NCBI RefSeq assembly: GCF_003600355.1
Contig: NZ_CP032416.1
Location: forward strand, 1,384,183 to 1,448,182
Length of the DNA: 64,000 nt
Reading direction: 5' to 3'
Origin: Clostridium fermenticellae
GTDB lineage: Bacteria; Bacillota; Clostridia; Clostridiales; Clostridiaceae
In this document: positions 23,058-42,039 of the stretch, piece by piece
Layout: each line of letters starts with the position of its first letter
Numbering within the stretch: the stretch's first letter is position 1
Made by a program: the position numbers and the translations under genes
Notes under the pieces: model-generated
The model's input: only the letters and a program-made list of their open reading frames with translations
Database searches by the model: none
What the model was told of the DNA's origin: nothing

Positions 23058-23876
23058 TTAAGCAGATTTTTTGCAATTATCCTCACATTGTTGAGGGGTA
23101 ATATATCCTATAGAGCCATGGATTCTAATCCTGTTATACCATGATTCTATGTATTGAAATACAGCTAATTTTGCAGAATTATAATCGCAGTATTTAACAA
23201 GATTTACCTCTTCTTTCTTTAATGAAGCATGGAATGACTCAATGCAGGCATTGTCATAAGGGCAACCCTTGGCACTGAAAGAGTGAGTTATTAAATGAGT
23301 ATCTAGAAGATAATTTTCAAATTCACAGCTTGTATATTGAGTTCCAAGATCACTGTGGAGAACCAGTGGTTCAACCGGTTTCTGTAGATTAAGAGCATTG
23401 TCAACTGCATTTACAGCAAGTTTAGAATCCATAGATTTTGAGAAACTATAACCGATTATTTTTCTGCTGTAGAGATCCATGACGGATGCAAGATAACACC
23501 AGCCGTCTTTTATAGTGTGTATATATGTTATATCGGTACACCATTTTTGATTTATTCTACTGGTATTAAAATCTCTTTTAAGGATATTTTCCTTTTCTTC
23601 AACCTTATATTTTGAAGGAAAAGGTCTAAATCTTTTACAGACAATAGACTTTATACCTAACTTTTTCATAAGCCTCTGGGTTCTTTTAAGACTTATATTT
23701 ATATTGATCCGTTTTAATTTATAGTTTATTTTTATTGCCCCATAGCGTTTTTTACTATCGTTATAAATCTTCATAATACAAGCTTGAATCTGTTTATTCT
23801 CAATGCTTCGCATACTCTGCTTTCTTATTAAACTTTTATAGAAAGAACTTCTTGGAATATTGAAGATATTGCACAT
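23058..23876 (-). CDS. IS3-family transposase OrfB (DDE integrase core)
   Basis: The frame carries the rve integrase core. The catalytic triad is readable as the Asp in WCTDITYI, the Asp in VLHSDLGTQY and the Glu in NACIESFHASLKKEE, with the HTH_21 segment KRYGAIKINYKLKR before it. The listed start, ATG for MCNIFN, is only the first in-frame ATG; the reading frame is open up to the A7G slippery site in orfA near 23957, so the active product should be the frameshifted OrfAB fusion. No lesion was seen. It reads opposite to the CRISPR array it interrupts. Confidence 0.93.
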   Translation of the reverse strand: MCNIFNIPRSSFYKSLIRKQSMRSIENKQIQACIMKIYNDSKKRYGAIKINYKLKRININISLKRTQRLMKKLGIKSIVCKRFRPFPSKYKVEEKENILKRDFNTSRINQKWCTDITYIHTIKDGWCYLASVMDLYSRKIIGYSFSKSMDSKLAVNAVDNALNLQKPVEPLVLHSDLGTQYTSCEFENYLLDTHLITHSFSAKGCPYDNACIESFHASLKKEEVNLVKYCDYNSAKLAVFQYIESWYNRIRIHGSIGYITPQQCEDNCKKSA

Positions 23877-29520: not shown

Positions 29521-32246
29521 GTTGAACCATAACATGAGATGTATTTAAAATTTTATACCTCCTAAAGTACTCTCATTGCAGCATTGGTTGAACCATAACA
29601 TGAGATGTATTTAAAATTTTTTAAATTTTCTATGTCAATTTCAATGTTTTTTGTTGAACCATAACATGAGATGTATTTAAAATGGAATCGTATTTTAGGT
29701 AGCTTTTTTTCTTTTATGTTGAACCATAACATGAGATGTATTTAAAATCTAGAACCTCATCTATCATATCCCTTAATTTTAGTGTTGAACCATAACATGA
29801 GATGTATTTAAAATCTAATTTATATTTGTTTTGTTCTTCTAATTGTAGAGTTGAACCATAACATGAGATGTATTTAAAAGATACAAAAAAATGTTTTGCT
29901 ATTGCAGGACTAGCAGTTGAACCATAACATGAGATGTATTTAAAAGCTTTAATCTGTTAAGGAGTTTCGTTGCGTCTGAGGTTGAACCATAACATGAGAT
30001 GTATTTAAAATTAATAAATTGTCCATCTACTAATACATCTATATAAGTTGAACCATAACATGAGATGTATTTAAAACACCCTGTGTATAAATTAACCGCA
30101 AGAGGAGAATATGTTGAACCATAACATGAGATGTATTTAAAATTCATAAATTTTTAATTGATTCCAGGTATTCGCTTTGTTGAACCATAACATGAGATGT
30201 ATTTAAAATTCCTAAGTTACTAAAAGTTTTAAGCGCAAGCTTGTTGAACCATAACATGAGATGTATTTAAAAGTTTAAAAATTCTTCTGCTGTAGGATTG
30301 TCTGGGGGGTTGAACCATAACATGAGATGTATTTAAAATGAGTGGATAAATTTTTATGAGGATGACAACGGGCGGTTGAACCATAACATGAGATGTATTT
30401 AAAATTTAGTGTTTGGAGTAAGATGATAGAAATGTGTGTAGTTGAACCATAACATGAGATGTATTTAAAAAATTATACATCATCTTTTTATAATGATGAA
30501 GATACGTTGAACCATAACATGAGATGTATTTAAAAGAATTAAGAAATACTTCTATATGTATATGTGGACCTAAGTTGAACCATAACATGAGATGTATTTA
30601 AAAGAAGACGTTGACCAATATTATACCCTAGCCAATGAAGTTGAACCATAACATGAGATGTATTTAAAAACATAAAGATAATTTTGGAGGTGAAGTTGTT
30701 GGATTGTTGAACCATAACATGAGATGTATTTAAAAGATGGTGAATATGTCGACTGTACTGAAGGTGTTGTACGTTGAACCATAACATGAGATGTATTTAA
30801 AAGGACTGATACGCTACTTGCAATTAAAGAAATCTGTTGAACCATAACATGAGATGTATTTAAATATATAAGCTTTTATTCTGGTAAACAACGGATTACC
30901 AGTTGAACCATAACATGAGATGTATTTAAATTGGCGTCCCAAACTGTCTTAAGTGTATCCTTCAATAGTTGAACCATAACATGAGATGTATTTAAATCCA
31001 ATCCATTTTTTTAATTGAGTTGGGCTATTAGGAGTTGAACCATAACATGAGATGTATTTAAATATAATAGCAATGGCGAAGACGTACAAAATAAGACCAG
31101 TTGAACCATAACATGAGATGTATTTAAATGAAGTACATAAGGCTGAACTTGATAATTTAACACATGTTGAACCATAACATGAGATGTATTTAAATCAAGA
31201 ATGTTGTTTAGACAGGGAGAGCAAGGAAGGTTGAACCATAACATGAGATGTATTTAAATATGATTACTAAATCTGCATTGTCTAGGCAGTTGAGTGTTGA
31301 ACCATAACATGAGATGTATTTAAATCTATTTTTTTAATGGCTCATTTATATGTGTTAATTTGTTGAACCATAACATGAGATGTATTTAAATAGTATTTCC
31401 GTGATAGAAAATAGATTAGATACAGACGTTGAACCATAACATGAGATGTATTTAAATAATGCCTTTTTAGTACGATTACTTATTGCCTGCCCGGGTTGAA
31501 CCATAACATGAGATGTATTTAAATTTATTAATACAACCTTCTATTTCTGAACCACTTCCAGGTTGAACCATAACATGAGATGTATTTAAATTTGCATTTC
31601 TTAAGCGTTTAGGTTGCTTTGTCTGTTGTTGAACCATAACATGAGATGTATTTAAATAATTCAATACCAACGGCTGTTAAGTCTGTAGTTACGTTGAACC
31701 ATAACATGAGATGTATTTAAATAATAATAGGAGACTTATTATTAATTGTATTTTTAAGTTGAACCATAACATGAGATGTATTTAAATCCTTCATTTTGTG
31801 AAGAAAGAGACTTAACAGAAATGTTGAACCATAACATGAGATGTATTTAAATAATATAAGGGGAGGAATTATTTATGACTAAAAATTGTTGAACCATAAC
31901 ATGAGATGTATTTAAATACTATTTTGCCAGTATCAAAAGCCTGTAAAAAACCGTTGAACCATAACATGAGATGTATTTAAATCATGAATAATGGTAAGAT
32001 AAATATATAAATAAGTAAGGTTGAACCATAACATGAGATGTATTTAAATAAATGTACTGATGAATAAAGTCCGCACAGAAATAAGGTTGAACCATAACAT
32101 GAGATGTATTTAAATCCGCAACAACTCTATAAAAGAGTTCTTACATTGTCGTTGAACTATAACATGAGATGTATTTAAATGGAATTGGTTTATGAGTTAT
32201 TGGCATAACTGCAGCTGTTGAACCATAACAAGTGTTGTATAAAATA
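29521..32246 (+). CRISPR. CRISPR array 2, 41 repeats plus a decayed terminal repeat
   Basis: Repeats of 30 nt begin GTTGAACCATAACATGAG. By hand count, copies 1-20 (29521 to 30802) end in TTTAAAA and copies 21-41 (from 30836) end in TTTAAAT. Copy 41 (32151) has one more change, GTTGAACTAT. The last unit (32217-32246) keeps GTTGAACCATAACA and then decays, as expected at the leader-distal end. Spacers are about 35-37 nt. One spacer (near 31854) contains a ribosome binding site and start codon, GGGGAGGAATTATTTATG, so it targets the beginning of a gene. The array runs on the same strand as the type I-B operon that starts 270 bases later. Confidence 0.98.
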
Positions 32247-32444: not shown

Positions 32445-32519
32445 AATAGGCAGAATAATAATATATATGGAAAATCATTTCTTTATATATATAATAATAC
32501 AAATGAATGGAGAATATTG

Positions 32520-33230
32520 ATGGATATTGTTGAAATAAATGTAAAAGTATTTACACTTCAAAATATTACTACTAGAGAAGCACTTGAAGACTTAAGCAGG
32601 CTTATAGATAAGTCTTTTTACAAGAATGAAGCTCTGGAGAATTTTCATGAAAAAAATACTATGAAAAATTATTGCTTTAATAGTTTATACCCTTTGGATG
32701 TAAAAACTAAGATATATAAAAAAGGTGAAATTTATAATTTTCAACTAAGGTGCATAGGGGATGAATTAAGGGAACATTTTTTAAAGTTTTTGTGTAATGA
32801 ATATACTTTAAAGCTCAAGGTACTTGTCTGCAAGAGTAAAATTGTGCCTAAAAGACCAATAGAGAGGGTATACAGTATAACACCTGTAATAGTAAAAATG
32901 CCGGGAAGTGACAAAATTGTATATTGGAGAAATGGATATACCGAAGAACAATTCTTTGAGTATATAAGAACAACCAGCATAAAAAAATATGAAGTTCTTA
33001 CAGGAAAAATTGTAGATAAGAATTTAAAACTATTTAACTACTCTAAAATAGACAACAAAAAGCCAATAGCTGCTGATTTCAAAGACAAGAAACTCCTTGG
33101 TGACAAAGTGACATTAACTATAGAAACAAATGATGATGCTCAAAATATTGCATATATGCTGCTTGGAACAGGTACGGCTGATATGTGTCCAAGGGGTTAT
33201 GGTTTCATGAATTATCAGTATATAAAATAA
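32520..33230 (+). CDS. cas6: CRISPR endoribonuclease Cas6 (type I-B)
   Basis: Cas6 cuts the repeat RNA to release mature crRNAs. The 236-residue protein has the double ferredoxin-like pattern of the family and the C-terminal glycine-rich loop GTGTADMCPRGYGFMNY. A histidine suitable for catalysis lies in ENFHEKNTMKNYCF. The ATG at 32520 is chosen over the TTG three bases earlier because of its distance from GGAGA. It is first in the operon and is the only cas6 in the window, so it probably serves all three arrays and also supplies the type III-B complex. Confidence 0.9.
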   Translation: MDIVEINVKVFTLQNITTREALEDLSRLIDKSFYKNEALENFHEKNTMKNYCFNSLYPLDVKTKIYKKGEIYNFQLRCIGDELREHFLKFLCNEYTLKLKVLVCKSKIVPKRPIERVYSITPVIVKMPGSDKIVYWRNGYTEEQFFEYIRTTSIKKYEVLTGKIVDKNLKLFNYSKIDNKKPIAADFKDKKLLGDKVTLTIETNDDAQNIAYMLLGTGTADMCPRGYGFMNYQYIK

Positions 33231-33248
33231 GAGTGGAGGTGAATATGT

Positions 33249-34979
33249 TTGATAAATGAAATTTGCATGGCATTTAATAATGAATATGAAGAAAAGGGTG
33301 ATGCTTTAATTATAGATAACTATACTCTGTCACCTGGAAGTTATGTAGAGTTTACCCTAGATGATAATGGCGAAGTTATTGATATATTTGATGTAGATAA
33401 AAATTCTGACAAGTCACAGGATACTTATAAAAAATTTGCAGAAAAAGACTGCTTGAGTGGACTTATTTCCATGAATAAACCAATAGATCCAGCTAAAGTA
33501 ATACATAGTAATAATATGTTTTCTTTTTATGTTAAAAAAGAAAACTTGGATTTATTAAGTGGAAAATTGAATGAAAAAATAATAGAAGGATATTATGATG
33601 TTTTAAAAAATCCTGAAAAAAAGTATAAAGGCAAAAAAAATTTAAAGTTGTACACTAAATTTGTAGAAGAAAGCAGCGAGCCAGATGGAGAATTTATAGA
33701 TAAAGTACAAAGTTGGATAAAGGAAAATATATGGAAAATAGCAGGACGTTTAAAGAAATTAGACAAAACATATCTTAAATTATTTTACCAAACAAATATT
33801 CACAATTATGAAACAGAGAGTCAAAGATATATGATCCCTAATATATACAATAGCCCGGATTATAATGTTAAAATTGGGAAGAATGTATTTGGACTCTCGG
33901 ACTTTAATATGGGACTCAATTCAAAAAAGCCATATCTTGAAAACAAGACTAGAAAGAGTAAACTGCCACTACTTGTGGATTCTAAAACTATTTCAAATGA
34001 AAAAAGGGTATTTGACTATCTTATGAACTGTTCAGCAGAAACTAAAAATTGTATATATGTAGATAAAAATATGTATCCTTTAAAAGCGAAAGAGAGTATG
34101 GAGGCCGATTTTAGTGGACATATTTTAAGAGTAAAAAAGGGAAAAGAAGTTGAAATTTTAGATTATGACTCTGTGAATATATATAAATACAAGCTGAAAA
34201 AAAATATAGAGATAAAACCAATACTAAATGAGGGTATAGGTGAAAAATTTGAATTACTTGTAGGAAATATGCTTTACCTTAAAGAAGTAAAAAGGAATGT
34301 AAATGAGGTGTTTTTTAATAAATTTCTTGAAACTAATTTTTTTACAGAACCTGGAGATATAAGCTTGAATGATTCTAAAGTGAAAGAATGTCTTTTGAAA
34401 TACAGACATGGCTTTTATACTTGGTTTTTTAAGGGAGAGGATTCTCTTGTGAAAACCTTTTGGGATAGTATGACGCTGTATCTTTTGCGTAATTCTATAG
34501 CTCAGGGAAATGTGAATAAAGCAGTGAATCAGTTTAATTTAAGGTACGCACTTATTGGTTATTTTAATGAAGGAGGAAAAAAGAATATGAATTCGATTGT
34601 TCACGATGCCAGAAGAAATGTAGACGAAAAGATAAATATAAAAGAAGATAATGGGGATAAGGTCAAAATAGGAAATGATGCAGAATACTATTTTTGTATA
34701 GGACAGCTTCTTAAATATTTTTATAGCCTGAATAAATCAGCAAATAAAAGCTGTTCTTTCATAAATGCTTTTCTAAATTCAGAAAATGATAGATTTATTA
34801 AAGAAAGACTCAGAAGATTATTTGTAAAATACAACTACACGATAAAGCCGCATCTTAAATTTAACAATTTATATTGTATGATTTTAGCTTATGTGCCAGA
34901 AAATGAAGTAGATCAAGACAGTATAATTGCGGGATTTTTAAGTCCCAGTCTAATATATAAAAAAGGAGAGGAAAACTAA
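33249..34979 (+). CDS. cas8b: Cas8b, large subunit of type I-B Cascade
   Basis: This 576-residue protein fills the large-subunit position between cas6 and cas7, where Cas8b recognises the PAM and recruits Cas3. Large subunits diverge fast and I see no catalytic motif; the call rests on position, size and general resemblance to clostridial Cas8b (N-terminal beta-rich half, C-terminal helical part that may replace a separate small subunit). The start is a TTG after GGAGGTG; the nearby ATG is in another frame and stops at once. Its TAA is immediately followed by the cas7 ATG. Confidence 0.85.
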   Translation: MINEICMAFNNEYEEKGDALIIDNYTLSPGSYVEFTLDDNGEVIDIFDVDKNSDKSQDTYKKFAEKDCLSGLISMNKPIDPAKVIHSNNMFSFYVKKENLDLLSGKLNEKIIEGYYDVLKNPEKKYKGKKNLKLYTKFVEESSEPDGEFIDKVQSWIKENIWKIAGRLKKLDKTYLKLFYQTNIHNYETESQRYMIPNIYNSPDYNVKIGKNVFGLSDFNMGLNSKKPYLENKTRKSKLPLLVDSKTISNEKRVFDYLMNCSAETKNCIYVDKNMYPLKAKESMEADFSGHILRVKKGKEVEILDYDSVNIYKYKLKKNIEIKPILNEGIGEKFELLVGNMLYLKEVKRNVNEVFFNKFLETNFFTEPGDISLNDSKVKECLLKYRHGFYTWFFKGEDSLVKTFWDSMTLYLLRNSIAQGNVNKAVNQFNLRYALIGYFNEGGKKNMNSIVHDARRNVDEKINIKEDNGDKVKIGNDAEYYFCIGQLLKYFYSLNKSANKSCSFINAFLNSENDRFIKERLRRLFVKYNYTIKPHLKFNNLYCMILAYVPENEVDQDSIIAGFLSPSLIYKKGEEN

Positions 34980-35909
34980 ATGAATAGAGTATATGGTGTT
35001 ATCGGAATAAAATCAATTATGGCAAATTGGAATGCTGATTTTGGAGGATATCCAAAGACAATAAGTAATGGAAATATATTCGGTAGTGATAAGGCACTTA
35101 AATACAGTATAAAAAAATATTGGGATGATAATGGGGAAAAAATACTTTATATAAAGTCTTTTAAAACTGAAAAAGGAAAAATAAGACCAAGATCTCTTGA
35201 GGAAAGATACAATCAAGTTTTTGATACCACACTTACTAAGAAAGATGAAAGTACAGCTGTCCTTAAAAATTTATTTTCTGCAATTGACGTAAAGTCATTT
35301 GGAGCTACCTTTGCAGAAGAGGGAAATAATATATCAATTACAGGAGCAGTACAGATAGGTCAGGGATTCAATGTTTATGAAAAGTCAAGTATAGAGGAAC
35401 AGCAAATCCTTTCACCATTTAGAAGCGATAAGAAAGCTAAAGAGGGAAAGGAAGCAGAGGAGGCAAATCAGAGCACACTTGGAACAAAAATCGTAAGCGA
35501 TGAAGCACATTATCTCTATCCTTTTTATGTAAATCCAACCTCTTATAGAGATTACGTGGATATGCAAGTTACAGAAGGTTATACAGATGAAGATTTTAAT
35601 AGATTTAAAGATGGAGCACTTATAGGTGCAACAGCATTAAATACAAATGCAAAGTCAGGGTGTGAAAATGAATTTGCACTTTTTATAGAGACAGATGAAA
35701 ATACTTATTTTCCAAATTTAACTCAGTTCATGGAATTTGAAAAAGGCAAAAACAAGGATATTTTGAAATTGAATTTAAATAAAATACTGGAGCAAATAAA
35801 GGATGATGTTAAAAGCATAGAAATTTATTATAATGACTATAAATTGGAATTGCAAAATAAACCTGAAGGAGCTAAGTTTTTCGATATATTCACAAGAAAA
35901 GAGGTTTAG
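34980..35909 (+). CDS. cas7: Cas7 (Csh2-like), backbone subunit of type I-B Cascade
   Basis: Cas7 proteins polymerise along the crRNA. The 309-residue product has the Csh2/Cas7b pattern: N-terminal RVYGVIGIKSIMANWNADF, the GSDKALKYSIKKYW segment and a central AVQIGQGFNVYEKS loop. It starts directly at the base after the cas8b stop and ends three bases before cas5, so expression is tightly coupled; Cas7 needs higher stoichiometry than its neighbours, and the good AAAAGGAGAGG upstream fits that. Nothing looks broken. Confidence 0.9.
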   Translation: MNRVYGVIGIKSIMANWNADFGGYPKTISNGNIFGSDKALKYSIKKYWDDNGEKILYIKSFKTEKGKIRPRSLEERYNQVFDTTLTKKDESTAVLKNLFSAIDVKSFGATFAEEGNNISITGAVQIGQGFNVYEKSSIEEQQILSPFRSDKKAKEGKEAEEANQSTLGTKIVSDEAHYLYPFYVNPTSYRDYVDMQVTEGYTDEDFNRFKDGALIGATALNTNAKSGCENEFALFIETDENTYFPNLTQFMEFEKGKNKDILKLNLNKILEQIKDDVKSIEIYYNDYKLELQNKPEGAKFFDIFTRKEV

Positions 35910-35912
35910 AGG

Positions 35913-36656
35913 ATGGAAGTTTTAAGGTTTAAGCTTTCTGGCAGAACTGCGTTTTTTAAAAAGCCTGATGTAAATACGTATTATTACTTTACATATGGGA
36001 ATATACACAAGATTGCCATACTTGGGATAATGGGAAGTGTTCTTGGACTCAAAGGGTATAATTTTCAGAGTAGTGACTTTGAAAAAAATATATATCCAGA
36101 ATTTTATGACAGACTGAAATCTTCTAAGGTTTCGGTAATAACTCTTAACAAGCATGGATATATAACAAAGAAAATTCAAGCCTTTAATAATTCTGTAGGA
36201 TATGCAAGCAGAGAGACTGGAGGAAATCTTATAGTAAAACAACAGTGGCTTGAGGAACCGGAATGGATTGTCTATGTAAAAATAGACAGTGGTACAGCTG
36301 AGTTTTCAGATATGCTTATGAAAAATAAAGCTAAGTTTATACCATACCTTGGTACAAATGATCATTTTGCAGATATAGCAGATGTATGCAAGCTTGAGGT
36401 ATCAAAAATAGATGATTTTGAGAAAATCGACAGTATGTTTAAAACTCAATATTTTAAGGTAGATAAATATTTAGATGAAAATGCAGAAGATACTGCATGG
36501 AAATATACAGAATACCTTCCAGTAGAACTGGATGAAAAACTTAATCAATACAAATTTGCTGATTTTACGGAGACAAATATGTATGTGGATCCTTTAGATG
36601 AAGATGAATTTATATATAGAGATGAGAAACTTGGAAAGAATATCTACTTTTTTTAG
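35913..36656 (+). CDS. cas5: Cas5 (type I-B), crRNA 5'-handle-binding subunit
   Basis: Cas5 caps the 5' handle of the crRNA. This 247-residue protein has the N-terminal RAMP strand VLRFKLSGRTAFFKKPDVN and the YYYFTYGNIHKIAILGIMGSVLGLKGY region (given here in its features, not in full), characteristic of Cas5h/Cas5b. It begins three bases after cas7 with AGAGGTTTAGAGG ahead of the ATG and ends nine bases before cas3. In array 2 two versions of the 8-nt handle exist (ATTTAAAA and ATTTAAAT), both of which this subunit would have to accept. Confidence 0.88.
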   Translation: MEVLRFKLSGRTAFFKKPDVNTYYYFTYGNIHKIAILGIMGSVLGLKGYNFQSSDFEKNIYPEFYDRLKSSKVSVITLNKHGYITKKIQAFNNSVGYASRETGGNLIVKQQWLEEPEWIVYVKIDSGTAEFSDMLMKNKAKFIPYLGTNDHFADIADVCKLEVSKIDDFEKIDSMFKTQYFKVDKYLDENAEDTAWKYTEYLPVELDEKLNQYKFADFTETNMYVDPLDEDEFIYRDEKLGKNIYFF

Positions 36657-36665
36657 GAGGCTGCC

Positions 36666-39194
36666 ATGTATTTTGATAGTGTTAACTTGTTTAAAACAGA
36701 AGATTTCATAAATAATCTTAATAATATGTATGCCCACAGAGACAGAAATGATGAAAGCAGAAGAGAAAAGCTTAACTGTCATATAGAGTTGACATATAGG
36801 TATTTTGAATTCATATGCAGACAAAAAAACCTAAGTGATGTGTTTTTTAGGCTTGAAAAAAATATATTGAAACATAAAAGTGAAGAAGTCATAAATCTAT
36901 GGAAAGAAATGCTTGCCAATACTGTGTATATGCATGATATGGGAAAAATTAATCCTGGTTTTCAATGGATTAATATGCTAAATGAATTGTATAAAGATAC
37001 AGAGGCAGAGAAAGAACATTCACTTCTCGGGGCATATATATATGTAAGTTATTTTTCAAAAAAGATAGATAAGATTCATAAAAGACATGACAGGTTTTAT
37101 CTGAAATATTTTATGTATTTAAACTCCTATATAATATCAAGACACCATGGAATTCTTATTGATATTAAAAATTACGAAGAATTGTTAAGCGATTTTCCTG
37201 AGAAGTACAGCAAAGAAAAGTATTATCCTGATCTCAATATGGATACTTCGGGAAAGGTATATATTTTTAATTCATTTAGCAATTCCCGTAAAAATGTAAA
37301 AGACTGTTTGAATGAAGATGATAGATTAGGTTTTTACATATATATTTACAGTAAACTTATATTTTCAATTTTAACAGCATCAGATTATTATGCCACATCA
37401 GAGTTTATGAATGGCGAAAAAGTAGATGATTTAGGACTTGTAAACGAGAATTTAAAGAGGAAGTTCAGTGAAGATATAGATAAATATTCTATTATGCAAA
37501 GTGTACGGGAATATGAAAAAAATCCTGTACACGATGAGATGTATACAAATATAAATCAATTGAGATCTGAAATAACACTTGAGGCTGAAAAAAATTATCT
37601 AAAAGATAAAAGCAAGAATATATATTATCTTGAAGCACCGACTGGAGCAGGAAAAACTGTAACTTCAATTAATCTTGCAAGGCTTATGCTTAATTCAGAT
37701 GAGAAAATAAATAAGCTATTTTACGTATTCCCTTTTAACACCTTAGTTGAACAGACAGAAGCTGAATTTATGAAGATATTTAAAGATGACGAGAATATAA
37801 TTAAAAATATATCTGTTATAAATTCATTAACGCCTATAAAGACTATTGACGAAGAAGATTATGAAAAGTCTCTTTTAAACAGAATATTTGTAAACTATCC
37901 TTTTGTTATAACTACACATGTTGGCTTATTTAACTTTTTATTTGGAACCAGCAGGGAAGAATGTTTTCCTCTTGTAAATATGTGTAATTCAGTAATAATA
38001 CTTGATGAAATACAAAGCTATAAAAATGATATATGGAAAGAGATAATAAATTTTTTAGATGTATATTCTGAAATTTTGAATATAAGGGTTATAATAATGT
38101 CAGCTACACTTCCAAGGTTCAACAAACTGATAGATTATGAAAGTGAAAATTTTGCCTATCTTATACAGAATAGAAAACATTATTTTGAGAATCCTTACTT
38201 TATGAATAGAGTAAAATTTGAAATGCTTAATTTGAAGGGCGAAATTAAAGAGCAATTTAAAAGTTTGATGGAGGATATTGAGCTGGAAGGTAAAGACAAT
38301 AACAAAATACTTATTGAGTTCATATTTAGAAAGAGAGCGGATGAATTTTATGATTATATGAATGAGAATTTTCACAATGAATATGGACATAAAATTGTCA
38401 TTATGACCTCTGATGATAACAAAGTTGACAGAAAGAAAATTGTGGGTATGGCAAAGGATGAGAATACAAAACTTATACTTATAGCGACTCAAATAATAGA
38501 GGCCGGAATTGACATTGATATGGATATTGGCTATAAAAATATATCCATAATGGATGCAGAAGAACAGTTTATGGGCAGGATAAACAGGTCATACTTAAGA
38601 AATGGAAAGGTGAAATTTTTCAAGATTGATGACTGCGCCGATATATACAAAGGTGATGTAAGAAAAGAAAAGGAATTTACGCTTCTTGAGGATGATATTA
38701 AAGATATTCTTATGAGAAAAGATTTTGAGGAATACTATAAAAGAGTGATAGATAAAATAAATGTAAAGAAAAGGGAGTTTAATGATAGAGGATATGCTCA
38801 TTTTATTTCACAATTAAATTCTTTGGATTTTAAGGAACTGGAAAAACGTATGAAACTTATAGATGACGATCAAAAAGAATATACGGTTTTTATTTCTCGG
38901 GACATAGAAATTAGAAAAGATGAATTTATATCTGGATGTGATGTATGGACAAGTTATAAAAAGGTTTTAATGGACAATTCTATTGGCTATGCTGAGAAGA
39001 GGGTGAAATTGTCTGAAATTAATCTTCTCTTAAATTATTTTATATACAGGGTAAAGAAGATACCGGATCAGTACAATGAACTGCTTGGAGATATATATTA
39101 TATTTCAGACGGAGAAAAGTATATAAAAAATGGCAGGTTTAATCAGGACATATTTACGGGAAAAAAGGTTGATGCGGCAAATATAATTTTGTAA
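36666..39194 (+). CDS. cas3: Cas3 helicase-nuclease (HD plus SF2)
   Basis: Cas3 degrades the target DNA after Cascade binding. The 842-residue protein joins an N-terminal HD nuclease (His39, His90-Asp91 in YMHDMGKINPGFQW, His118, His160/161 in SRHHG, and the Asp in TASDYYAT) to an SF2 helicase with EAPTGAGKT (Walker A), ILDEIQSYK (DExx box), the SAT motif MSATLPRF, QIIEAGIDIDMD and FMGRINRS. All key residues are present, so it should be active. It follows cas5 by nine bases after a GGAGG site and ends two bases before the open frame of cas4. Confidence 0.95.
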   Translation: MYFDSVNLFKTEDFINNLNNMYAHRDRNDESRREKLNCHIELTYRYFEFICRQKNLSDVFFRLEKNILKHKSEEVINLWKEMLANTVYMHDMGKINPGFQWINMLNELYKDTEAEKEHSLLGAYIYVSYFSKKIDKIHKRHDRFYLKYFMYLNSYIISRHHGILIDIKNYEELLSDFPEKYSKEKYYPDLNMDTSGKVYIFNSFSNSRKNVKDCLNEDDRLGFYIYIYSKLIFSILTASDYYATSEFMNGEKVDDLGLVNENLKRKFSEDIDKYSIMQSVREYEKNPVHDEMYTNINQLRSEITLEAEKNYLKDKSKNIYYLEAPTGAGKTVTSINLARLMLNSDEKINKLFYVFPFNTLVEQTEAEFMKIFKDDENIIKNISVINSLTPIKTIDEEDYEKSLLNRIFVNYPFVITTHVGLFNFLFGTSREECFPLVNMCNSVIILDEIQSYKNDIWKEIINFLDVYSEILNIRVIIMSATLPRFNKLIDYESENFAYLIQNRKHYFENPYFMNRVKFEMLNLKGEIKEQFKSLMEDIELEGKDNNKILIEFIFRKRADEFYDYMNENFHNEYGHKIVIMTSDDNKVDRKKIVGMAKDENTKLILIATQIIEAGIDIDMDIGYKNISIMDAEEQFMGRINRSYLRNGKVKFFKIDDCADIYKGDVRKEKEFTLLEDDIKDILMRKDFEEYYKRVIDKINVKKREFNDRGYAHFISQLNSLDFKELEKRMKLIDDDQKEYTVFISRDIEIRKDEFISGCDVWTSYKKVLMDNSIGYAEKRVKLSEINLLLNYFIYRVKKIPDQYNELLGDIYYISDGEKYIKNGRFNQDIFTGKKVDAANIIL

Positions 39195-39208
39195 TTATGG
39201 AGGAAAGT

Positions 39209-39703
39209 ATGAAAATAAATGGTACACTTATAAATTACTATTTTCACTGCAAAAGACAGTTTTGGCTGCATGGCAATAGAATTAATATGGAGTATACAAA
39301 TGAAGATGTAAAAATAGGAAAGGCAATCCATGAATTAAAGGCAGAAGGCAAGGATAATGCAGAAATAGCTATAGATAATGTGAAGATAGACAAGCTTACT
39401 AAGGATTATTTAGTTGAGATAAAAAAGTCAGATGCAGATGTGGAGGCTTCAAAGTGGCAGGTTTTATTTTATTTAAGTGTATTAAAAAGTAAAGGCATAA
39501 TTAGAGAAGGCAAGCTTGAATTTCAGGAAAAAAATAAACAGGATAAAAAGATAATATATGTAAGTCTCACAGAAGAAAGTGAAAATAGATTAAAAGATTT
39601 AGAAGTTGAAATGGAAAAGCTGCTTGAAGAGGAGATACCTCCTAAAATCGGAAAAGTCAAGGGCTGCAGGAAATGTGCTTATTATGAGTATTGTTATATA
39701 TAA
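39209..39703 (+). CDS. cas4: Cas4 exonuclease (adaptation)
   Basis: Cas4 trims prespacers and helps choose those with a correct PAM. This 164-residue protein has the RecB-like start INGTLINYYFHCKRQFWLH, the LVEIKKSDADVEASKWQVLFYL catalytic core and the C-terminal iron-sulfur cysteines GCRKCAYYEYC. The ATG at 39209 is used because GGAGGA lies just before it and family proteins start at this point; the ATG at 39197 overlaps that site. Its end overlaps an upstream extension of cas1's frame but not the cas1 coding sequence. Confidence 0.92.
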   Translation: MKINGTLINYYFHCKRQFWLHGNRINMEYTNEDVKIGKAIHELKAEGKDNAEIAIDNVKIDKLTKDYLVEIKKSDADVEASKWQVLFYLSVLKSKGIIREGKLEFQEKNKQDKKIIYVSLTEESENRLKDLEVEMEKLLEEEIPPKIGKVKGCRKCAYYEYCYI

Positions 39704-39726
39704 AATATATTTTAGGTGGTGAAAAA

Positions 39727-40731
39727 ATGGCAGGCGGTACTAAGTATCTTATGAGTATGGGAGAACTTAAGAGAAAAGATAATTCAATAGTGTTTAAGAA
39801 TGATAAGGGGAATTCCTATTTACCTGTAGAGTCGATACAGGAACTGTACTGTATGAATGAAATCTCTATAAATACAAAATTTCTTGATTTTGCAGCTAAA
39901 GCAGGCATAGTTATCCACTTTTTTAATTACTATGGATATTACAGCGGAACTTTTTATCCCAAAGAGAATCTTGTAAGCGGCAGGGTAACTATAAAGCAGG
40001 TTGGGGCTTTTTTAAATAATAGAAATTATATAGCAAAGGCATTTGTAAGCGGAATAGGAGAAAATATATATCAGCTTTTATATCATTATTACAGACATGA
40101 TAAAAAAGAAGTAGAACCTGCTCTTGAGTGGATAAGAGAAAAGCTACCTGAATATATGGAAGACGGCAATATGGAAATAAAGCAGATACTCAGAGTAGAA
40201 GGCGAAATATGGCAGAGATTTTATGAGTGTTTCAAGTACATATTGCCAGAAGATTTTGTACTCAACAAAAGAGTTAAAAGGCCTCCAGATAATCCAATAA
40301 ATGCTCTTATATCCTTTGGAAATTCAATACTATATTCGAAGACGGTAGCACAAATTTACAATACCCATTTAAATCAAACTATAAGTTATCTCCACGAACC
40401 GTCTGAGGGTAGGTTTTCTTTAAGTCTTGATCTGTCTGAGGTATTTAAACCAGCAATAGTTTATAGGACGATATTTGATCTGGTCAATACAAAGCAGATT
40501 CAAGTAAGCAAGCATTTTGATAAGAAATATAATTATTGTCTTTTAAATGATGAAGGCAGGAAAATATTTGTACAGGCAATTGAGCAGAGATTTGAAAGTG
40601 TTTTCGACCATAAAAAGCTTAAGAGGAAGGTGAGTTATAAGACAGCAATAAGACTTGACGGATACAAACTTATAAAATATTTAGTAGAAGGAGAAGAATT
40701 TAAACCTTTTAGTTTAAAGGATATGATGTAA
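39727..40731 (+). CDS. cas1: Cas1 integrase (type I-B)
   Basis: Cas1 with Cas2 inserts new spacers at the leader end. The 334-residue protein starts at ATG 39727 (MAGGTKYLMSMGELKRKD) after TTAGGTGGTG; the open frame extends further upstream but into cas4. The metal-binding residues are the Glu in RVEGEIWQRFY, the His in YLHEPSEGRFS and the Asp in LSLDLSEVFKP, all in place. It is the only cas1 in the window and so should be responsible for growth of all three arrays, including the odd repeat units of array 3. Confidence 0.95.
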   Translation: MAGGTKYLMSMGELKRKDNSIVFKNDKGNSYLPVESIQELYCMNEISINTKFLDFAAKAGIVIHFFNYYGYYSGTFYPKENLVSGRVTIKQVGAFLNNRNYIAKAFVSGIGENIYQLLYHYYRHDKKEVEPALEWIREKLPEYMEDGNMEIKQILRVEGEIWQRFYECFKYILPEDFVLNKRVKRPPDNPINALISFGNSILYSKTVAQIYNTHLNQTISYLHEPSEGRFSLSLDLSEVFKPAIVYRTIFDLVNTKQIQVSKHFDKKYNYCLLNDEGRKIFVQAIEQRFESVFDHKKLKRKVSYKTAIRLDGYKLIKYLVEGEEFKPFSLKDMM

Positions 40732-40746
40732 GGTGGGATCATTTCT

Positions 40747-41031
40747 ATGAAGAGAAACTTTAATTTCAATTACGCATTTTTATTTTATGATGTAAATGAA
40801 AAAAGGGTGAATAAAGTATTTAAAGTTTGCAAAAAGTATTTTCATCATCACCAAAATTCTGTTTTTAGAGGATCAATAACTCCTTCAAAGATGATAAAAT
40901 TGAAAAGCGAACTGAATAAGATTGTAGAGAGTGGTGATTTTGTAACAATAATAAAACTTATGAATGATAGCTGTTTTGAAGAAGAAACGCTTGGAACAAA
41001 TGATAAAAATACTGAGAATTTGATACTTTGA
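40747..41031 (+). CDS. cas2: Cas2 (type I-B)
   Basis: Cas2 is the dimeric bridge of the Cas1-Cas2 integrase. The 94-residue product has the ferredoxin-like fold start YAFLFYDVNEKRVNKVFKVC and the HHQNSVFRGSITPSKM segment normal for I-B Cas2. It follows cas1 by 15 bases, with AAGGTGGG upstream, and closes the operon; a hairpin follows the stop. The C-terminus has an acidic, polar tail with no obvious domain. Confidence 0.93.
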   Translation: MKRNFNFNYAFLFYDVNEKRVNKVFKVCKKYFHHHQNSVFRGSITPSKMIKLKSELNKIVESGDFVTIIKLMNDSCFEEETLGTNDKNTENLIL

Positions 41032-41138: not shown

Positions 41139-41561
41139 ATGAACCTTAACATTCAATATAATTGTTTAAATGTAGATTGGAATGATGTCTCTGAAATATT
41201 AAAAAAGGTTGGAATGGCATATTTTGAGGCGAAAATGCATGAAAAAGCTTTTAAAAATAGTCATACTGTCATATTTGTCTTTGATGATAACAAATTAATT
41301 GGATTCGGACGTGCAATTTCAGATGGAAGCTATCAGGCTGCAATTTATGATGTTGCAGTATTACCTGAATATCAGGGAAAGGGTGTTGGCAGAACAATTG
41401 TTGATGCCATTTTAAAGTGTATTCCTCAGTGCAGTTTTATATTGTATGCTTCACCTGGTAAGGAAGCTTTTTATGAAAAACGTGGGTTTAGTAAAATGAA
41501 AACTGGAATGGCATGTTTTCATAATTCAGAGGCAATGCGAACGAAAGGGTTTATTAAATAA
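41139..41561 (+). CDS. GNAT-family N-acetyltransferase
   Basis: The 140-residue protein has the acetyl-CoA-binding core of GNAT enzymes: IYDVAVLPEYQGKGVGRTIV holds the Q/RxxGxG/A motif, and ASPGKEAFYEKRGFSKMKTGM is the usual end of the fold. The substrate cannot be inferred. A near-perfect CAAGGAGGAG precedes the ATG. It is placed between the cas operon and array 3, and there is no sign that it works with CRISPR; its promoter region holds a 15-bp palindrome that could bind a regulator. Confidence 0.87.
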   Translation: MNLNIQYNCLNVDWNDVSEILKKVGMAYFEAKMHEKAFKNSHTVIFVFDDNKLIGFGRAISDGSYQAAIYDVAVLPEYQGKGVGRTIVDAILKCIPQCSFILYASPGKEAFYEKRGFSKMKTGMACFHNSEAMRTKGFIK

Positions 41562-41584: not shown

Positions 41585-41759
41585 TTTTCCAATCACCGTT
41601 AAAAGTTAAAGTGCCTAAGCTGTTTAAATTCAATAGCTTATAGCACCTTTTTACTGTGATTGTCTAAAATAAAAAATGGTTGGAAAAATTTCAGATAAAG
41701 CCTTTATTATCAATAGGGTTAGAGATATAATGGAAATAAAGAATGGCTATTTTACTCTG
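41585..41759 (+). promoter_or_regulatory. CRISPR array 3 leader
   Basis: This has the same organisation as leaders 1 and 2: arms TTTTCCAATCA (41585-41595, one mismatch) and TGGTTGGAAAA (41677-41687), then TTTCAGATAAAGCCTTTATT, a TATAAT at 41726-41731 and the end GAATGGCTATTTTACTCTG. It is well conserved although the array is short. Part of the intervening sequence can fold (AAGTGCCTAAGCT with AGCTTATAGCAC). Confidence 0.8.
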
Positions 41760-42037
41760 GTTGAAGTTGAACCTTAACATGAGATGTACAAATTATTTAA
41801 TTTCGTTGAAGGACATGAAAATGCGTTGAAGTTGAACCTTAACATGAGATGTACTACTGGATAACCGCCAACCATATTTTTATTTATTTTGTTGAAGTTG
41901 AACCTTAACATGAGATGTATTTAAATCAAAAATGATGAAAATAAAAGATACTTTTTTAATTGGTTGAACCTTAACATGAGATGTATTTAATGTGGACAGA
42001 TGCTTTTAACAGATGGTTTGCTACCGGTTGAACTTTA
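41760..42037 (+). CRISPR. CRISPR array 3, five irregular repeats and four spacers
   Basis: Units start at 41760, 41825, 41891, 41963 and 42027. Unit 3 is 36 nt: GTTGAA followed by a complete 30-nt repeat (GTTGAACCTTAACATGAG to ATGTATTTAAAT). Units 1 and 2 begin with the same doubled GTTGAAGTTGAACC but stop at GATGTA(C), so they are 29-30 nt and lack the TTTAAAT end. Unit 4 has no doubling and has lost one A; unit 5 is only GTTGAAC plus decay. Spacing is 65, 66, 72 and 64. The array lies downstream of cas2 on the same strand. Whether it is still used is unclear. Confidence 0.88.
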
Positions 42038-42039
42038 AA

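Follow-up and report, generated by a model that had tools for sequence, protein, structure and literature searches.

The leader-side end of a short type I-B CRISPR array in Clostridium fermenticellae very probably records a 6-bp duplication at the start of what was then its first repeat, followed by two spacer acquisitions that each copied about 30 nt of the lengthened repeat. The window (the whole stretch of DNA that was analysed, 64,000 nt) holds this array, termed array 3, at 41760-42038. The array would be a natural and unusually clean instance of ruler-based repeat sizing, built on two clipped units in one genome, and its newest immune memories have probably been left without a working RNA end.

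Structure of array 3

The leader, repeats and spacers of array 3 are listed below by window position.

41660-41759, + strand: leader of array 3, ending ...GGCTATTTTACTCTG, with 91% identity to the array 2 leader over 100 bp
41760-41789, + strand: unit 1 repeat (newest), GTTGAAGTTGAACCTTAACATGAGATGTAC, 30 nt, 3' end clipped
41790-41824, + strand: spacer 1, 35 nt
41825-41854, + strand: unit 2 repeat, 30 nt, identical to unit 1
41855-41890, + strand: spacer 2, 36 nt (37 if the C at 41854 is counted as its start)
41891-41926, + strand: unit 3 repeat, GTTGAAGTTGAACCTTAACATGAGATGTATTTAAAT, 36 nt, the full 30-nt repeat preceded by a second GTTGAA
41891-41896, + strand: extra GTTGAA of unit 3, its left edge being the putative leader-repeat junction of that time
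41927-41962, + strand: spacer 3, 36 nt
41963-41992, + strand: unit 4 repeat, GTTGAACCTTAACATGAGATGTATTTAATG, without the duplication and with a worn 3' end, ATTTAATG; 34 nt follow
42027-42038, + strand: unit 5, terminal repeat fragment, GTTGAACTTTAA

By direct reading, the start-to-start distances are 65, 66, 72 and 64 nt. Units 1 and 2 have exactly 30 nt in common counted from the leader junction, and each has 29 nt in common with unit 3; the ATTTAAAT end is missing from both, and spacer 3 is the sole spacer of array 3 with the canonical ATTTAAAT before it. The initial annotation had described unit 3 as a full repeat with an extra 5' GTTGAA, units 1 and 2 as carrying the doubled start and ending at GATGTA(C), and the leader-side spacing as 65 and 66 with 72 from unit 3 to unit 4, and all three descriptions were confirmed. 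Repeat-core matches in shuffled sequence numbered 0, a control that excludes a chance origin of the repeat matches in array 3.

Genomic setting

Array 3 is located just downstream of the cas operon, with one small acetyltransferase gene in between.

32517-39194, + strand: cas6, cas8b, cas7, cas5 and cas3 (type I-B), profile matches
39197-41031, + strand: cas4, cas1 and cas2 (adaptation genes), all open; NCBIfam Cas1b E=4e-125; PADLOC Cas4b and Cas2b

The operon, cas6-cas8b-cas7-cas5-cas3-cas4-cas1-cas2 (32517-41031), is intact and of type I-B, with PADLOC matches to Cas8b (E=9e-165), Cas3b (1e-279), Cas1b (9e-140), Cas4b (8e-58), Cas2b (4e-33), Cas6 (2e-98), Cas5b and Cas7b. The array form is also that of type I-B, with a 30-nt repeat, spacers of about 36 nt and a conserved leader. 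Besides array 3, the genome contains arrays of 94 and 42 units and a fourth with 74 units, and the units outside array 3 (206 units) are 63-68 nt long, equivalent to spacers of 33-38 nt. Array 1, with 94 units, is followed directly at its trailer end by an integrase-core (IS3-like) transposase gene (window 23058-23876).

The gene between cas2 and array 3 (window 41139-41561) encodes a GNAT acetyltransferase. tblastn searches showed that in the sister species (G001) cas1-cas2 adjoin one array and a piece of the GNAT gene adjoins the second. This piece, the C-terminal part (L011 1704-1826), is displaced to a different array away from cas1-cas2, and the locus has therefore been rearranged.

The leader-repeat junction

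The four leaders of the genome (window 16839, 29521 and 41760; genome position 950985) align without gaps up to the junction, where they follow the pattern ...GGCTATTTT[GA]C[AT]C[AT]G and then GTTGAA. In array 3 the junction reads ...TATTTTACTCTG and then GTTGAA. Because this leader aligns without gaps to the three others, the extra 6 nt are part of the repeat. An insertion of GTTGAA from the leader was rejected on the grounds that every leader is gap-free to the junction. Mis-integration at a point 6 bp inside the leader was likewise dismissed, since it would give repeats starting with ACTCTG. The GTTGAA duplication can be rotated in neither direction, and its left edge is exactly the junction. 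The leader-repeat junction is the integrase's first cut site; that the duplication has its edge there may be fortuitous, or may point to a failed integration as its source.

Comparison with related arrays

The genus contains one other species besides C. fermenticellae. Both arrays of the sister species were taken as counterparts of array 3, and in both the duplication is absent and the leader is joined to a normal repeat. C. tyrobutyricum and C. luticellarii likewise have arrays downstream of cas2 in which the leader meets a normal repeat directly, with no duplication. The Cas1 of C. tyrobutyricum has 83-84% identity along the matched segments. The initial annotation had proposed searching related strains for the pre-duplication state, which was recovered from another species and from paralogous arrays only and not from a sister strain.

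Across the same family, 81 arrays of at least 5 units were surveyed (1,896 units over all arrays, some of them overlapping between fetched stretches). The units measure 62 to 69 nt, most often 66, and the 81 arrays yielded no second case of a changed repeat length near the leader. None of 67 arrays beside related cas1 genes in bacteria and archaea has a clipped or extended leader-side repeat. Altered units in these 67 arrays are found at the trailer end, the exceptions being inserted elements in Clostridium acidisoli and one damaged edge unit in a second array (L118). In all, nothing like array 3 was seen in approximately 150 related I-B arrays, and a search of 84,980 species genomes for the exact doubled start gave no further case.

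The C. acidisoli array (L111 9334-9438 and 9700-9804) contains two copies of a short element inserted within repeats, giving units of 105 versus about 65; a duplicated repeat piece flanks the element, which resembles a MITE. Elsewhere, an array of otherwise 30-nt repeats contains one 32-nt repeat with an internal AT insertion near the trailer (L058, unit 39). This was considered as an informative parallel and dropped, as its leader-side neighbour is normal.

Proposed order of events

Since the duplication is found in three successive leader-side units and is absent from unit 4, it is older than both acquisitions and would have struck the repeat before spacer 3, which was then the first. This repeat, now unit 3, would have grown to 36 nt when its first 6 nt were exactly duplicated in tandem. 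In the next two acquisitions, the new spacer would have been joined to one strand at the leader-repeat junction and to the other roughly 30 nt inward, short of the true repeat end, each new repeat comprising the first 29-30 nt of a 36-nt template that was presumably unit 3. A 36-nt repeat cut at two points 30 nt apart would give the order leader-(30)-new spacer-(30+6)-old spacer, the arrangement of units 2 and 3; the following event would then have produced unit 1. From that point the clipped first repeat would be copied by every later acquisition, and the defect would be self-perpetuating.

It is the repeats that are clipped and not the spacers, because the unit lengths in array 3 stay normal (65 and 66). 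Had 36 nt been copied in units 1 and 2, their spacers would be 29-30 nt long, below the range seen in the rest of the genome. New repeats thus kept a constant length despite an indel in the first repeat (36 nt in unit 3, 29-30 nt in units 1 and 2, spacers normal). The initial annotation's reading of a duplication in the then-first repeat followed by two copies of about 30 nt is supported by the unit order and the normal unit lengths. From these features, together with the sequences, the spacer lengths and the absence of the pattern elsewhere, we infer in what order the events took place and that the integrase caused them.

Two other origins of the clipped units were weighed. Worn, old arrays do gather damaged repeats, as seen in unit 4 and the terminal fragment of array 3, and units 1 and 2 could have lost their 3' ends after acquisition by deletion or inter-repeat recombination. 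Such loss is very improbable: two independent deletions of 6-7 nt would both have to restore the lengths 65 and 66 and would have to stop at the same 30-nt boundary beside different spacers, and damage in other arrays is located at the trailer end. An assembly or sequencing artefact, which the restriction of the pattern to one genome might suggest, has a still slighter chance, as the identical duplication occurs in three units with different spacers and the genome is a single contig, 99.98% complete.

Base 30 of the repeat

Under duplication followed by clipped copying, one extra event is needed to account for the C that units 1 and 2 have at base 30, and array 2 (window 29521-32246) offers a parallel. 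The 20 newest repeats of that array end in TTTAAAA and the older ones in TTTAAAT.

30773-30835, + strand: array 2 switch unit, at which repeat base 30 changes from T to A; 63 nt, the sole unit of this length among 206 in the genome

The short unit suggests that one acquisition copied 29 nt before a 34-nt spacer starting with A, which then became repeat base 30; copying of 30 nt would have resumed afterwards. A step of this kind would also account for the C in array 3, through a 29-nt copy, a spacer 2 starting with C and then a 30-nt copy. A T to C mutation, or the copying of 29 nt twice, is also possible, as the initial annotation had suggested with its choice between a mutation and a 29-nt ruler; neither is necessary, given that a 29-nt copy followed by a 30-nt copy explains the base.

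No convincing protospacer that might show the PAM or an invader source of the base-30 C was obtained from phage records for arrays 1, 2 and 3, from plasmids for array 1, or from 2.9 million viral contigs searched with three exact seeds, and none was found for spacers 1 and 2 of array 3. In a Thermodesulfobacteriaceae I-B array (L142, 7447 onwards), base 30 is C, then T (6 units), then C again in the two newest units, a pattern that fits the adoption of a spacer base, with no short unit there.

Possible positions of a ruler for the second cut

That a ruler sets repeat length is known from work on engineered type I-B, I-E and II-A arrays; no report of a natural array recording it was found in the part of the literature that was covered. 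Adaptation in the I-B system of Haloarcula hispanica requires nt 1-3, 11-15 (AACCC) and 18-22 of the repeat, according to PMC9458426, and PMC6895254 gives the rule for I-B and I-E that an insertion upstream of a ruler element moves the second cut by the length of the insertion. This rule predicts a copy of 36 nt in array 3, so either an anchor was re-created in register or the distance from the junction is what counts.

The repeat has AAC at positions 5-7 and again at 11-13, six apart, and among junction duplications of 1-12 nt only one of 6 nt restores AAC at 11-13. Of 44 distinct 30-nt I-B repeats, all have C13 and 93% have A12; GTT at 1-3, G21, A23, T24, T25 and A27-A29 are also conserved. 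In the 36-nt repeat, positions 1-3 and 11-15 are in register and G21, T24, A27 and A28 are displaced. The 3' half would not place the cut, because these four conserved positions are out of register and the copy is still about 30 nt, and the case argues against a ruler there. What positions the second cut would instead lie in the first ~13 nt or at the leader junction, namely GTT at 1-3 and/or the re-created A12-C13.

Two versions of the account of a duplication followed by copies of about 30 nt can be distinguished here. An internal anchor, with the second cut about 17 nt beyond an A12-C13 that was re-created in register by chance, has close to an even chance of being correct. The conservation of A12 and C13 speaks for it, as does the description of nt 11-15, AACCC, as anchor 1 in H. 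hispanica (PMC9458426), where the mutant repeat of array 3 has AACCT; the original AAC, now at 17-19, has persisted yet remains unused, and the conservation of A12-C13 might instead reflect Cas6 binding. A pure leader-junction ruler, whose footprint would hold the two cuts about 30 nt apart irrespective of the intervening sequence, is a credible but more doubtful proposition. It agrees with the copying of 29-30 nt when most conserved middle and 3' positions are displaced, and with the apparent conversion of a spacer base into repeat base 30 in array 2; the restoration of AAC at 11-13 by this very duplication counts against it. The initial annotation had taken the copy to be measured from the leader junction, which is possible, but an anchor at AAC 11-13 predicts the same 30 nt.

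Comparison of repeat lengths between lineages bears on the same choice. Stable 29-nt repeats occur in several I-B arrays (L118, L120, L128, L135, L136, L138 and L161), with the missing base upstream of the conserved C in some (C12) and downstream of it in Sporomusa (C13). In L135, L136, L138 and L161, which have C12, the distance of 17 from the C to the repeat end is kept, in agreement with an internal anchor, and the Sporomusa repeats (C13, distance 16) do not fit such an anchor. As long-term comparisons, the 29-nt lineages lean slightly towards the anchor, whose spacing to the repeat end is preserved in three and not in Sporomusa.

Relation to known systems

Haloarcula hispanica, with its two-anchor sizing (Wang et al. 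2016, as described in PMC9458426), is of the same subtype as array 3. The counterparts of its nt 1-3 and 11-15 stay in register in the mutant repeat, and that of anchor 2 (18-22) is displaced, the copy nonetheless ending at about 30 nt. The two rulers of Escherichia coli I-E (Goren et al. 2016, as cited in PMC6895254) likewise set repeat length by distance despite indels, but in another subtype and in engineered arrays, whereas array 3 is natural. In the type II-A system of Streptococcus thermophilus, a molecular ruler for the second site (2019, PMC6895254) lies near nt 28-32 of a 36-nt repeat and was revealed with engineered insertions of 1-3 nt; array 3 is of type I-B and has a natural insertion of 6 nt at the 5' end.

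Predicted consequences for crRNAs

In H. hispanica, the last 8 nt of the repeat after Cas6 cleavage form the crRNA 5' handle, which is bound by Cas5 and is required for that binding (PMC9458426). The corresponding sequence is AUUUAAAU for unit 3 and AUUUAAUG for unit 4. Units 1 and 2 end at GATGTA(C), without TTTAAAT, and lack an 8-nt handle of this kind. At the level of sequence, this supports the initial annotation's expectation that spacers 1 and 2 would lose the ATTTAAAT handle; the crRNA defect itself is a prediction. Their crRNAs would be expected to open with A(C) and then spacer sequence, lacking AUUUAAAU, and so to be poor guides. The upstream part of the repeat that is thought to hold Cas6 is present in both units, and processing may still be possible. 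Guides 1 and 2, along with those of all later array 3 spacers, should be defective, and array 3 would offer a route to continued array growth while new spacers probably lose function.

A tentative extension, on balance doubtful, is that copying in clostridial I-B systems is set by the first ~13 nt alone (GTT and A12-C13), the 3' half serving crRNA production only. If this is true, a duplication of the right length could split the two functions and lock the array into endless copying of repeats that make handle-less, blank memories. The genome's three other arrays are unaffected.
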